A DNA stretch of 64,000 bases. Source: an uncultured Altererythrobacter sp. GTDB lineage: Bacteria > Pseudomonadota > Alphaproteobacteria > Sphingomonadales > Sphingomonadaceae. Where the stretch lies: positions 124,001 through 188,000 of the forward strand of contig CAJXNC010000005.1 in the NCBI GenBank assembly GCA_913056125.1, read 5' to 3'. This document shows, one piece after another, positions 27,480 through 34,801 of this stretch. Position 1 is the stretch's first letter. Every line of letters begins with the position of its first letter. The notes beneath the pieces were generated by a model. It was not told the DNA's origin and did no database searches. It was given only the letters and a program-made list of their open reading frames with translations. A program made the position numbers and the translations under genes.

Positions 27480-28466
27480 TCAGATCATTCCGGCAAGCGG
27501 GCTCGACGGATCGGCATATTTGCGCGTCTGCATGCGGCCCGCGAGATAGGCTTCACGCCCGGCGATTACGCCATACTTCATGGCGCGCGCCATGCGGATC
27601 GGGTCCTTCGCCTCGGCAATGGCAGTGTTCATCAGCACGCCGTCGCAGCCGAGCTCCATCGCCTCTGCCGCCTCGCTTGCCGTGCCGACCCCCGCATCGA
27701 CCAGCACCGGCACCTTGGCGCCTTCCACGATCAGGCGGATGGTCACCTTGTTCTGGATGCCGAGGCCCGATCCGATCGGAGCACCAAGCGGCATGATCGC
27801 CACCGCCCCCGCCTCTTCGAGTTGCTTGGCGGCGATGGGATCATCGACGCAATAAACCATCGGCTTGAAACCTTCTTTGGCGAGCACTTCGGTTGCCTGC
27901 AGCGTCTCGCGCATGTCGGGATAAAGCGTGCGCGCCTCGCCCAGCACCTCCAGCTTCACCAGGTCCCAGCCACCCGCCTCGCGCGCCAGGCGCAAGGTGC
28001 GGATCGCTTCTTCCGCGGTGAAGCACCCTGCGGTGTTGGGCAAATAGGTGACCTTCTTGGGATCGATAAAGTCCATCAGCAGCGGCTGGTTCGGATCCGA
28101 CACATTGACCCGGCGTACCGCTACAGTGACGATTTCCGCGCCGCTCGCTTCGACCGCCGCGGCGTTCTGGGCGAAATCCTTATATTTGCCCGTGCCGACG
28201 ATCAGGCGCGAATTGAAGCGATGTCCGGCCACTTCCCAGCTATCGTCAGCAGCATCTGAGCCACCGCCGACAAAGGTCACGATTTCCAGTCTGTCGCCTT
28301 CTTTCAGCTCGACTTGTTCGAGCGTCGAACGCGGCGCGATTTCGCCATTATGCTCGACCGCGACCTTTTCGGGCTTGAGCGACAGTTCGCGCACCAGCTC
28401 GGCAATGGTGCTTGCGGTGGAGCGGCGGGTCTCGCCATTGACGGTGAGGGAGATCGACAAAGCCAT
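27480..28466 (-). CDS. thiG: fused ThiS-ThiG thiazole synthase
   Basis: A 328-residue protein in which residues 1-68 are a ThiS-type ubiquitin-like sulfur carrier (VNGETRR at the start, [19 protein letters not shown] at the end) and residues 75-328 are ThiG, the barrel that builds the thiazole phosphate of thiamine. ThiG features: [31 protein letters not shown] (probable Schiff-base Lys), [10 protein letters not shown] and [10 protein letters not shown]. ThiS normally needs a free Gly-Gly C-terminus for thiocarboxylate formation; here GGG continues into ThiG. No other thi genes in the window. Confidence 0.93.
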
Positions 28467-32383: not shown

Positions 32384-33100
32384 TCAGGCTTCGCGCCGGC
32401 TCAGATGCACCACCATGAGGATCAGCGCCAGCACACCGCCAACGCTGCCTAGCGTCAACGCGACCTGCTGTTTTTGCGGTTCGGACATGATCTTGGCGGC
32501 CATGAGCCAGGGGAAATAGATCGCCTCTTTCGAAGAAGTCGAGGCGATCGCGATGAATGTCGCCGAAATCCCGAGCACAAGTGGCGGAACGAAGCTCTTG
32601 AAACGTAGCGCGACCCATAATTGCAGCATGGCGGCCAAGGTAGCAGCGGCAGCCATAAGAGAGAGCAAGGCCGCAAGGCCGCCGGGATAGATTTCGCCCG
32701 ACATGTCATCGCGCAGCAGGTCCACCAGTTTCGCACCGAGGAGCGTCTCAACCCAGAGCACGGTGGACATGAAGGCGATGAGCACAAGCATGACCAGCGC
32801 CTTTGCCAGGAAGACATTTGGCCTTGCCCCCGGAAGGGTGAGGATATGGAGCCAGCTGCGCGGCACATGCTCCATCTGCGCCAGCAACACGCCAAGCGCC
32901 GTGATCGCCAATGGCAGCATGCCAAAGGCCCACAGGCTCGATGCCCCTACCGCAAATTCCCCGATTGGCGCGGCACGGTCCGACCGCAGCCACATGATGG
33001 TGTTGAGGGCGACCACGCAGCTTGGCGCCGCGACACACAGGAACAGGGTGAGCGAGCGACGAAGCTTGAGAAATTCGGCTATTACAAAGCGATGAAGCAT
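32384..33100 (-). CDS. ABC transporter permease
   Basis: A 238-residue ABC-2-type permease with six hydrophobic segments. The N-terminus MLHRFVIAEFLKLRRSLTLFL and the loop HVPRSWLHILTLPGARPNVFLAKAL resemble permeases of the lantibiotic-immunity/bacitracin-export group. It is 12 bases downstream of its ATPase gene. Cargo unknown; export or membrane-stress protection is the usual role. Confidence 0.83.
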   Translation of the reverse strand: MLHRFVIAEFLKLRRSLTLFLCVAAPSCVVALNTIMWLRSDRAAPIGEFAVGASSLWAFGMLPLAITALGVLLAQMEHVPRSWLHILTLPGARPNVFLAKALVMLVLIAFMSTVLWVETLLGAKLVDLLRDDMSGEIYPGGLAALLSLMAAAATLAAMLQLWVALRFKSFVPPLVLGISATFIAIASTSSKEAIYFPWLMAAKIMSEPQKQQVALTLGSVGGVLALILMVVHLSRREA

Positions 33101-33112
33101 GTTTCCTCCCCG

Positions 33113-34018
33113 TCAGGCCGCGCGGGCAATCTGCTCGTGATAGATCTGTTCGAGCGCATTTCGGCGCCGGGCCAGGTGGGTTAGGTCGAGTCCGCCATCG
33201 AGCATGAGATGTGCGATCCTTTCCGGTGGCGCACCGTGGACGATCAGCGGTTCCCCGTGACCGACTGGGGTGGTGCAAACCAGATTGGCTTCGCCAAGAA
33301 GGCAGGCGGCGGCCTCGTTGTCGCCGGTCGAAACTTCCACCGCATCGCCCACTGAGAGATCGGCGAGCGGGGCTTCGAGCAGCAACCGCCCCCGATGGAT
33401 CAGCCCGACATGGCTTGCCACCAATTCGACCTCGGACAGCAAATGGCTGGATACGATCAATGTGACATCGCCCGCTTCCGGCAATTGCCGGAGCAGGCTG
33501 CGCATATCGCGAATACCGTCTGGATCGAGTCCGTTGGCTGGCTCGTCGAGAATCAGTAGGCGCGGGGAGCCAAGCAGAGCGCGGGCAATCGCCAGGCGCT
33601 GCCTCATGCCGAGCGAATAGCCTGCCACACGTTGGCTGGCCGCCTTGGACAGGCTAACCACTTCGAGCACGCGGTCGATCTCGCTTGCCGGCAAACCCAG
33701 GAGCCGCCGCGAAATGTCGAGGTTCTCCCGTCCGGTCAGGTGGTCGTAGAGCGAGGGCGTTTCGATCAGCGAGCCGATCTTTCCACGCGCTACACCCGGC
33801 GCCTCTCCGAACAGGCGGATCGTGCCTTTGTCGGGACGTGCAAGGCCGAGCACGAGCTTGAGCGTGGTCGTCTTGCCCGCGCCATTTGCGCCCAGAAAGC
33901 CGTAGACGCTCCGGCGCGGTACAGTGATCGACAGGTCGTCCACCGCTGGTGCGCGCCCGCCGAAGCTCTTGGTCAGCCCGCTGGTTGCGAGCGCGGGACT
34001 AATGTCTGCATCGTCCAT
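33113..34018 (-). CDS. ABC transporter ATP-binding protein
   Basis: A 301-residue ATPase. Walker A is GANGAGKTT, the signature is YSLGMRQRL, Walker B is LLILDEPANGLDPDG and the switch His is in SSHLLSEVE. The C-terminal 80 residues are the extra domain seen in BcrA-type drug/bacteriocin ABC ATPases. The start is the ATG at 34018; an in-frame TTG at 34030 falls on the operator. Divergent from the DUF2975/XRE pair and probably controlled by it. Confidence 0.9.
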   Translation of the reverse strand: MDDADISPALATSGLTKSFGGRAPAVDDLSITVPRRSVYGFLGANGAGKTTTLKLVLGLARPDKGTIRLFGEAPGVARGKIGSLIETPSLYDHLTGRENLDISRRLLGLPASEIDRVLEVVSLSKAASQRVAGYSLGMRQRLAIARALLGSPRLLILDEPANGLDPDGIRDMRSLLRQLPEAGDVTLIVSSHLLSEVELVASHVGLIHRGRLLLEAPLADLSVGDAVEVSTGDNEAAACLLGEANLVCTTPVGHGEPLIVHGAPPERIAHLMLDGGLDLTHLARRRNALEQIYHEQIARAA

Positions 34019-34029
34019 GATCGAATCCA

Positions 34030-34048
34030 ATTTAACTATTACTTAAAT
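34030..34048. promoter_or_regulatory. operator 1 in the ABC/DUF2975 divergent promoter
   Basis: ATTTAAC (34030-34036), 5 bases, CTTAAAT (34042-34048): a 19-bp dyad of form ATTTAAS-N5-STTAAAT. It sits 12 bases upstream of the ABC ATPase start codon. It pairs with operator 2 to form a larger 53-bp symmetric element. Confidence 0.65.
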
Positions 34049-34063
34049 TTGTGTTCTGCCGAA

Positions 34064-34082
34064 ATTTAAGTCAAGGTTAAAT
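34064..34082. promoter_or_regulatory. operator 2 in the ABC/DUF2975 divergent promoter
   Basis: ATTTAAG (34064-34070), 5 bases, GTTAAAT (34076-34082): the same 19-bp dyad as operator 1, in mirror arrangement, centres 34 bp apart (about three helical turns). Thirty bases before the DUF2975 start. Confidence 0.65.
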
Positions 34083-34112: not shown

Positions 34113-34562
34113 ATGGACTCGCTACGCAAGAGGGCGCGCATATTGATGTGGCTGGTGACATTGCCATTCGTATTGCTGGCACTGCTCGGCATCGGCCAGC
34201 TGGTGTTCCTGTTCAATGGAGAGGCTGCGCGCTGGATATACCTCGCCGCCTTTGTGCCGATGTATATCTATATCTGGGCCATGTGGATGGTGCGGCAGGC
34301 TTTGAAGCGCATTGCCGATGGCGCGATGTTCGACGAGGTGGTGCCACGCCTGCTCTCGCGTGTGGGGCTGGCCCTGTTCGTCGGCGCGCTGTTCAACGTC
34401 TTTGCCGGACCGACTGCCGGGGTGCTGTTCGGCATCCGCCTGCCCTTAAACTTCGATGGCGCCGCAATAACGCTGGGTGTGGTGGGCGCGACACTGGTGC
34501 TTGTGGCACAATTGCTGCAAGGGGCCGCCTCCATGCGCGAGGAACTGGACAGCTTCTTCTGA
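34113..34562 (+). CDS. DUF2975-type membrane protein
   Basis: A 149-residue protein with four membrane helices (about 10-30, 42-62, 85-105 and 118-138) and the segment LKRIADGAMFDEVVPRLLSRVG between helices 2 and 3, as in DUF2975 proteins. GAGAGG precedes the ATG by 9 bases. DUF2975 genes are typically followed by a YozG-type XRE regulator, as here (one-base overlap). Possibly a membrane-bound modulator of that regulator; this is inference. Confidence 0.8.
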   Translation: MDSLRKRARILMWLVTLPFVLLALLGIGQLVFLFNGEAARWIYLAAFVPMYIYIWAMWMVRQALKRIADGAMFDEVVPRLLSRVGLALFVGALFNVFAGPTAGVLFGIRLPLNFDGAAITLGVVGATLVLVAQLLQGAASMREELDSFF

Positions 34563-34801
34563 TGCCCGTGAAGATCACATTGGATAGCGTGCTGGCCAAG
34601 CGCGGGATGACCGGCAAGGAACTGGCCGAGCGTATGGGCCTTAGCGAAACGCAACTCTCTCTGTTTCGATCTGGCAAGGTACGCGGGATCCGCTTCGCGA
34701 CGCTGGCCCGCATGTGCGCCGTACTGAAGTGCGCTCCGGGCGACCTGCTCGATTACGAATTGGACGAGTCGGACCTGGCCGAGCAGGCCTCGCAGGACTA
34801 A
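34562..34801 (+). CDS. XRE/YozG family transcriptional regulator
   Basis: A 79-residue single-domain helix-turn-helix protein: ITLDSVLAKRGMTGKELAERMGLSETQLSLFRSGK is the five-helix Cro/CI-like core, and CAVLKCAPGDLLDYE is the usual end of YozG-type proteins. The start overlaps the DUF2975 stop (TGATG). The likely targets are the paired dyads at 34030-34082, controlling both this operon and the divergent ABC transporter. Confidence 0.88.
   Translation: MPVKITLDSVLAKRGMTGKELAERMGLSETQLSLFRSGKVRGIRFATLARMCAVLKCAPGDLLDYELDESDLAEQASQD

Follow-up and report, generated by a model that had tools for sequence, protein, structure and literature searches.

In Enterococcus faecalis the production of a lantibiotic is controlled by CylR1 and CylR2, and in Bacillus subtilis the membrane protein SdpI sequesters the autorepressor SdpR at the membrane (PMC3709268 and PMC1626106, respectively, both drawn on here in excerpt). 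We describe a locus of comparable layout in an uncultured Altererythrobacter sp. It lies in a stretch of 64,000 nucleotides (contig CAJXNC010000005.1, positions 124,001 to 188,000, hereafter the window), where the genes of an ATP-binding cassette (ABC) transporter diverge from those of a DUF2975 membrane protein and a small regulator of the XRE family. The gap between the two gene pairs carries two copies of a 19-bp palindrome. We propose, with a probability of about 0.75, that these copies serve as twin operators for the small XRE protein encoded next to them. This protein would act as an autorepressor of the divergent promoters and be relieved by DUF2975 as its membrane partner.

The comparison with CylR1/CylR2 covers the regulators only. 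The XRE protein of the window has a CylR2-like XRE fold with short strands at both ends. CylR1 is given three predicted transmembrane helices in the excerpt of PMC3709268 and the model of DUF2975 has four, and the comparison of the two covers helix number only. The CylR system controls the production of a lantibiotic, whereas the window system would control an exporter and has twin 19-bp sites. The same excerpt states that the link between the CylR membrane protein and its repressor is not understood. Capture of the repressor is reported for SdpI/SdpR in the text available from PMC1626106, and we propose the same logic here, where capture would be the analogous step for DUF2975 and XRE. An invariant glutamate in the DUF2975 tail (Glu144, see below) hints at a docking site for a capture of this kind. 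SdpR is a repressor of the ArsR type, whereas the window regulator belongs to HTH_26 and no ArsR model occurs among the four Pfam matches.

The repressor c2 of phage P22 (BK000583) also has an XRE fold, recognizes half-sites of the ATTTAAG type and has several sites over its early promoters, as we suggest for the window. The P22 operators have four bases between their arms (e.g. ATTTAAGTGTTCTTTAAT) and the window sites have five, which places the latter outside the P22 type. Furthermore c2 has a large C-terminal domain and shows 21% identity to the window XRE in the alignment. We take YoaS to be a DUF2975 protein. Makarova in 2009 (PMC2701414) lists, with the number 32, a gene pair of Xre and a YoaS-like membrane protein, and gives it no further consideration on the ground that membrane components were not known from any type II toxin-antitoxin system; the part of that article used here gives no operator, ABC partner or mechanism for the pair. 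In Streptomyces cacaoi the DUF2975 gene cppC is followed by the helix-turn-helix gene cppD in a peptide-antibiotic cluster, according to table 1 of PMC7827011, which is another hint of a link between DUF2975 and peptides. The literature was searched by titles and opening abstracts, with subscription journals mostly outside its scope; within it DUF2975 was seen just in one figure legend and one BLAST table, and we found no description of the operator or of the locus. The gene pair was already listed in 2009, and within this literature the twin operator with its ABC partner is newly described here.

Twin palindromes and their distribution

Site 1 lies next to the ABC genes at 34030..34048 (ATTTAACTATTACTTAAAT) and site 2 next to DUF2975 at 34064..34082 (ATTTAAGTCAAGGTTAAAT), neither being assigned to a strand. 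They read ATTTAAC-N5-CTTAAAT and ATTTAAG-N5-GTTAAAT, each a 6/7 palindrome when taken singly, and their centres are 34 bp apart. Both sit in the 94-base gap between the start of the ABC ATPase gene (34018, reverse strand) and the start of the DUF2975 gene (34113, forward strand), which has a GC content of 35% compared to 62.6% for the window. A preliminary description of this DNA had given the same arms, coordinates and spacing, all of which proved exact. It had also spoken of a perfect nested dyad of 53 bp. The inner 10-bp arms and the outer 7-bp arms are indeed perfectly complementary, but the 53 bp as a whole are self-complementary at only 38/53 positions, and we therefore regard them as two candidate operators and not as one perfect dyad. 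The nesting is no separate feature, because two copies of one palindrome always yield a nested dyad.

If the window is modelled as a first-order Markov chain, exact matches to ATTTAAS-N5-STTAAAT are expected 0.00004 times per 64 kb and 0.0017 times per 3.01 Mb. Sites 1 and 2 are the sole matches with ≤2 mismatches in the 3.01-Mb genome to which the window belongs; the reversed control pattern occurs there at 1 place. With ≤3 mismatches the window contains 2 matches against 0.87 expected, and at least 2 were reached in 21/100 shuffles. As such loose matching is near chance, the significance lies in the two exact adjacent copies.

The preliminary description had stated that its reading would fall if the dyad were not kept in orthologous loci. 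The comparison did not refute it: we found the pair in 47 distinct loci, with site 1 at 29-36 bp from site 2. Among the 57 loci compared six were without it (L009, L011, L013-L016), and four counted as repeats (L066, L088 and L101, and L072 by its identical sites) were dropped before the 47 were reached. A search with the window DUF2975 protein gave matches in 3/40 genomes of the genus and 13/298 of the family, the genome of the window being included in both. The 15 loci from this search (L003-L017) have the pair in nine cases and lack it in five, and at L011 the two sites are separated, one being upstream and the other downstream. A search with the operator itself (ATTTAAGTCAAGGTTAAAT, ≤1 mismatch) gave 10 places in 10/298 family genomes, and 0 for the reversed control among the matches listed. 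All 10 fall at loci of the DUF2975/ABC type, including those of three genomes (G007, G169 and G224) without a match in the DUF2975 search; one is the downstream site of L011, and another, at L023, lies beside a decayed XRE gene.

For a wider view we took one genome per species for 84,980 species and obtained 81 loci with the exact pair pattern, which was built from family loci and so favours this motif. Genes were detected with profiles made from 9 XRE, 5 DUF2975 and 2 ABC sequences. DUF2975 adjoins the pair in 38/81 loci, with ABC genes too in 37 of those 38; XRE was detected in 35 of them and the remaining three end within DUF2975. The other 43 loci include 40 with a GC content below 0.56, and 14/43 repeat one identical 17-mer; the three GC-rich ones are two related Pseudomonas loci and one tandem repeat. 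The whole arrangement was seen in Sphingomonas, Brevundimonas, Caulobacter, Lysobacter, Tahibacter, Rudaea, Myxococcus, Hyalangium and a metagenome-assembled genome (MAG) of the Chthoniobacterales, names that come from record titles and, for MAGs, may reflect contamination. We take these loci to belong to the Alpha- and Gammaproteobacteria, the Myxococcota and, with one MAG, the Verrucomicrobia. Across 188 half-sites the TTTA columns of the arms carry 1.9-2.0 bits each. These comparisons support the pair as a conserved operator-like feature of the DUF2975-XRE/ABC locus type.

Some loci depart from this arrangement. The operator of L011 (identical with L021) comes in two parts: a degenerate site (1398-1416) precedes DUF2975 and a perfect copy of site 2 with TTGACT (2178-2196) follows XRE, where it faces a gene that, from its translation, is presumably MarR-like. 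Two Pseudomonas genomes have a similar pair with TTTAAG-type sites twice (L049:1341-1391 and L075:252-302). It precedes a gene that we take to encode an M24-like peptidase, and a divergent gene, presumably for an XRE-cupin regulator, was seen in L049. On plasmids 162 records contain an XRE relative, with a best identity of 60% and a coverage of the query that stays below 80% throughout; one of these relatives (H6) overlaps an annotated DUF2975.

Association with the XRE recognition helix

The XRE gene (34562..34801, forward strand) encodes a regulator of 79 residues with the recognition helix SETQLSLF and matches HTH_26 (PF13443) at 69 bits, the gathering score being 22. We collected the loci of its best matches, 85 in total, of which 84 were oriented (L186 was left out) and 81 were distinct after three identical ones had been dropped. 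A lenient criterion was applied to all of them: two sites 29-36 bp apart, each with ≤4/14 mismatches and one with ≤3. The pair was found at 15/20 loci with a helix of the type [ST][EQ]T[QH][LM]S[LH][FL] and at 0/61 of the others (Fisher 2e-12, a value that ignores kinship). As none of the 61 has the pair though 46 of them carry DUF2975, the operator tracks the recognition helix and not the membrane partner. The local XRE protein, which the preliminary description had put forward as the obvious binder, is thus the best candidate for this role, and from the association we infer that it binds.

The exporter follows the same division, with ABC genes at 14/20 loci with this helix type and 0/61 of the others. 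Three loci (L006, L012 and L076) have the pair and an intact DUF2975-XRE and no ABC genes, as judged over ~1 kb upstream; at L076 a gene that is transposase-like by its translation stands in their place. In genome G317 the module seems to be divided between two places: L023 (1466-1519) has ABC genes, sites and a decayed XRE, and L012 has DUF2975-XRE with sites and without ABC. The L012 XRE would then have to act in trans to serve the two.

The genome of the window has a second DUF2975-XRE pair (L138, G000:C12:4682-5250), whose XRE is 45% identical and which is without the operator at ≤2 mismatches. A search for a shared upstream palindrome in 27 loci of the other helix type returned a GC-rich 4-mer as its top-scoring word. 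Three of them (L148, L149 and L150) have TTATTG-N5-CAATAA upstream of DUF2975 or XRE in common, and this is possibly an operator of the other branch.

Several points weigh against tying the pair to this XRE type. Five of the 20 loci with the right helix do not have it: L110, L111, L118 and L175 have neither ABC genes nor the pair, and L119 has its two sites apart, with one upstream and the other downstream. Upstream of L009, L013 and L014 (which are L118, L110 and L111, respectively) there is no palindrome of this type. Helix type, ABC genes and operator are confounded by descent and may travel together for that reason. L023 keeps its sites and its ABC genes beside a decayed XRE gene, as would be expected if another regulator bound the pair and the local XRE were merely co-resident; yet the same genome has a further XRE of this kind (L012/L116). 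The similar pair beside an XRE-cupin gene in Pseudomonas L049 (and in L075, where the left part is not covered) likewise suggests that another type of regulator may use TTTAAG-N5-CTTAAA. Against this, the sites follow the helix type of the XRE protein, stay with DUF2975-XRE where ABC genes were not found, and have no further match with ≤2 mismatches in their own genome. We consider a separate regulator unlikely.

Candidate promoter boxes within the sites

The spacer of site 2 is GTCAA, so that TTGACT, a candidate -35 box of the ABC promoter, is read on the ABC strand (34069..34074, reverse strand). This holds for 41/44 distinct loci with ABC genes and for 0/3 without them, where the arms are retained and TTGACT is absent. 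The three exceptions with ABC genes are L008 (TTGAAT), L010 (TTTACT) and L033. In the last, a Chthoniobacterales MAG (L033:7634-7682), TTGACT lies in the gap between the sites and both palindromes are kept. The spacer of site 1 is variable. TTGACT is separated by 16-18 bases from the inner half of site 1, and in the window a weak candidate -10 box, CAAATT (34046..34051, reverse strand), named from its position, would lie over that half, 17 nt from the -35 box. A consensus scan gave no promoter above threshold, which counts against the proposed scheme; the boxes named here rest on conservation. The promoter of DUF2975-XRE is only vaguely delimited; a mirror arrangement could be read by eye in L004 and L076.

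The centres of the two sites are 34 bp apart in 19 of the 44 loci with ABC genes, 32 bp in 12, 35 bp in 11, 33 bp in 1 and 36 bp in 1. The preliminary description had explained the spacing by two dimers on one face of the DNA, about three turns apart. A three-turn phase is not strictly kept over 32-36 bp, which weakens that view. As each putative box of the ABC promoter lies in or at one operator, this range is also what a -35/-10 pair needs. The promoter geometry offers a second explanation beside the helical-face argument, and both may hold.

This position of the sites also bears on the sign of the regulation. Some small XRE proteins are activators, and the window XRE might activate the ABC promoter and be held inactive by DUF2975. 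The sites would cover the putative -35 and -10 boxes, however, where a bound dimer should block the polymerase, and we regard activation as distinctly unlikely. Alternatively the pair might be mainly a promoter feature, made up of the -35 and -10 boxes in AT-rich DNA with palindromy as a by-product. The presence of TTGACT in site 2 and the low GC content of the gap would fit such an origin. However, the arms persist in the three loci that have neither ABC genes nor the TTGACT core, their TTTA columns are nearly uniform, and a promoter can do without four symmetric arms, so that this explanation appears very improbable. An RNA hairpin or terminator can practically be dismissed: a repeat search reported 21-nt arms with 86% complementarity across the nested dyad, but the nesting follows from the two palindromes, the gap between the sites varies from 10-17 nt across loci, inner bases are non-complementary in relatives by eye, and a generic scan and Rfam gave no terminator-like site and no match at gathering score.

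The genes and the proposed switch

The exporter consists of an ATPase (33113..34018, reverse strand; PF00005, 98.8 bits) and an ABC-2 type permease (32384..33100, reverse strand; PF12730, 60 bits). It had been called bacitracin-type. The nearest curated models are those of lantibiotic immunity transporters, namely the lantibiotic-protection ATPase TIGR03740 and the MutE/EpiE permease TIGR03732, yet both proteins remain well under the NCBIfam cut-offs (228 vs 309.75 bits and 35.8 vs 145.2 bits, respectively), and we call the exporter lantibiotic-protection-like. Further away in the window the gene at 27480-28466 (reverse strand) presumably encodes, from its translation, a ThiS domain fused to ThiG.

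DUF2975 (34113..34562, forward strand) reaches the gathering score of PF11188 with 33.2 bits vs 27. Its AlphaFold2 model has four long helices at a mean confidence score (pLDDT) of 93.7, and a fold search in the PDB gave no relative at E ≤0.001. Its stop codon overlaps the start of XRE (TGATG), as it mostly does among relatives. We aligned 46 of 51 sequences, which are 22-63% identical to the window protein; the five left out (L014, L015, L016, L023 and L085) also show Glu in their tails. The C-terminal tail, REELDSFF in the window, contains the motif E-L-D-E across the relatives, with Glu144 invariant in all 46 aligned sequences and Leu145 nearly so. The tail codons vary synonymously (GAA/GAG, CTG/CTC/TTG, GAC/GAT), which points to a constraint on the protein and not on a ribosome site for XRE. 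We propose that the tail is a docking peptide for XRE. This is the weakest step of the scheme: the conservation could instead serve folding or topology, and a contact between DUF2975 and XRE is one that we infer.

The switch would work as follows. At rest an XRE dimer on each site would hold both divergent promoters down, and leakage would maintain small amounts of DUF2975 and XRE. Site 2 would carry the -35 box of the ABC promoter and site 1 overlap its -10 box, with the DUF2975-XRE promoter in the same gap; with both promoters in one operator gap, XRE would repress its own operon along with the exporter. The transcript for XRE would also yield DUF2975, a four-helix membrane protein that would present its conserved tail ELDE-[FIM]-x. 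DUF2975 would respond to an event at the membrane or envelope, the signal probably being a membrane-active peptide or a similar compound. More tentatively than the binding and repression steps, we suppose that the signalled DUF2975 then recruits XRE to the membrane or changes it, so that XRE leaves the DNA and the exporter and the switch proteins are made. Once the signal is gone XRE would return to the DNA. The sites, their conservation and the links that they have with the XRE type and the ABC genes come from the comparison of loci; a role of the switch in membrane stress or peptide defence is plausible.

A broader reading is speculative and, in our view, somewhat doubtful. DUF2975-XRE pairs might form a broad class of transmembrane switches free of a phosphorelay, in which the tail ELDE-[FIM]-x docks XRE. 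One branch, with the T-Q/H helix and twin ATTTAAS-N5-STTAAAT sites, might have acquired an ABC exporter in divergent orientation and, as an envelope-defence cassette, have spread across three phyla, of which two are represented by isolates and the third by a MAG.

To our knowledge very few switches made of a small XRE protein and a membrane protein are known, CylR1/CylR2 being the example. The pair described here very probably consists of landing sites of the neighbouring small XRE, in what is likely a membrane-sensing switch of a hardly studied kind. The DUF2975-XRE family is widespread. Its candidate operator and its presumed target, the exporter, are both defined, some natural variants lack the exporter, and the invariant tail is open to mutation. 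Its genera include the tractable Caulobacter, Sphingomonas and Myxococcus.
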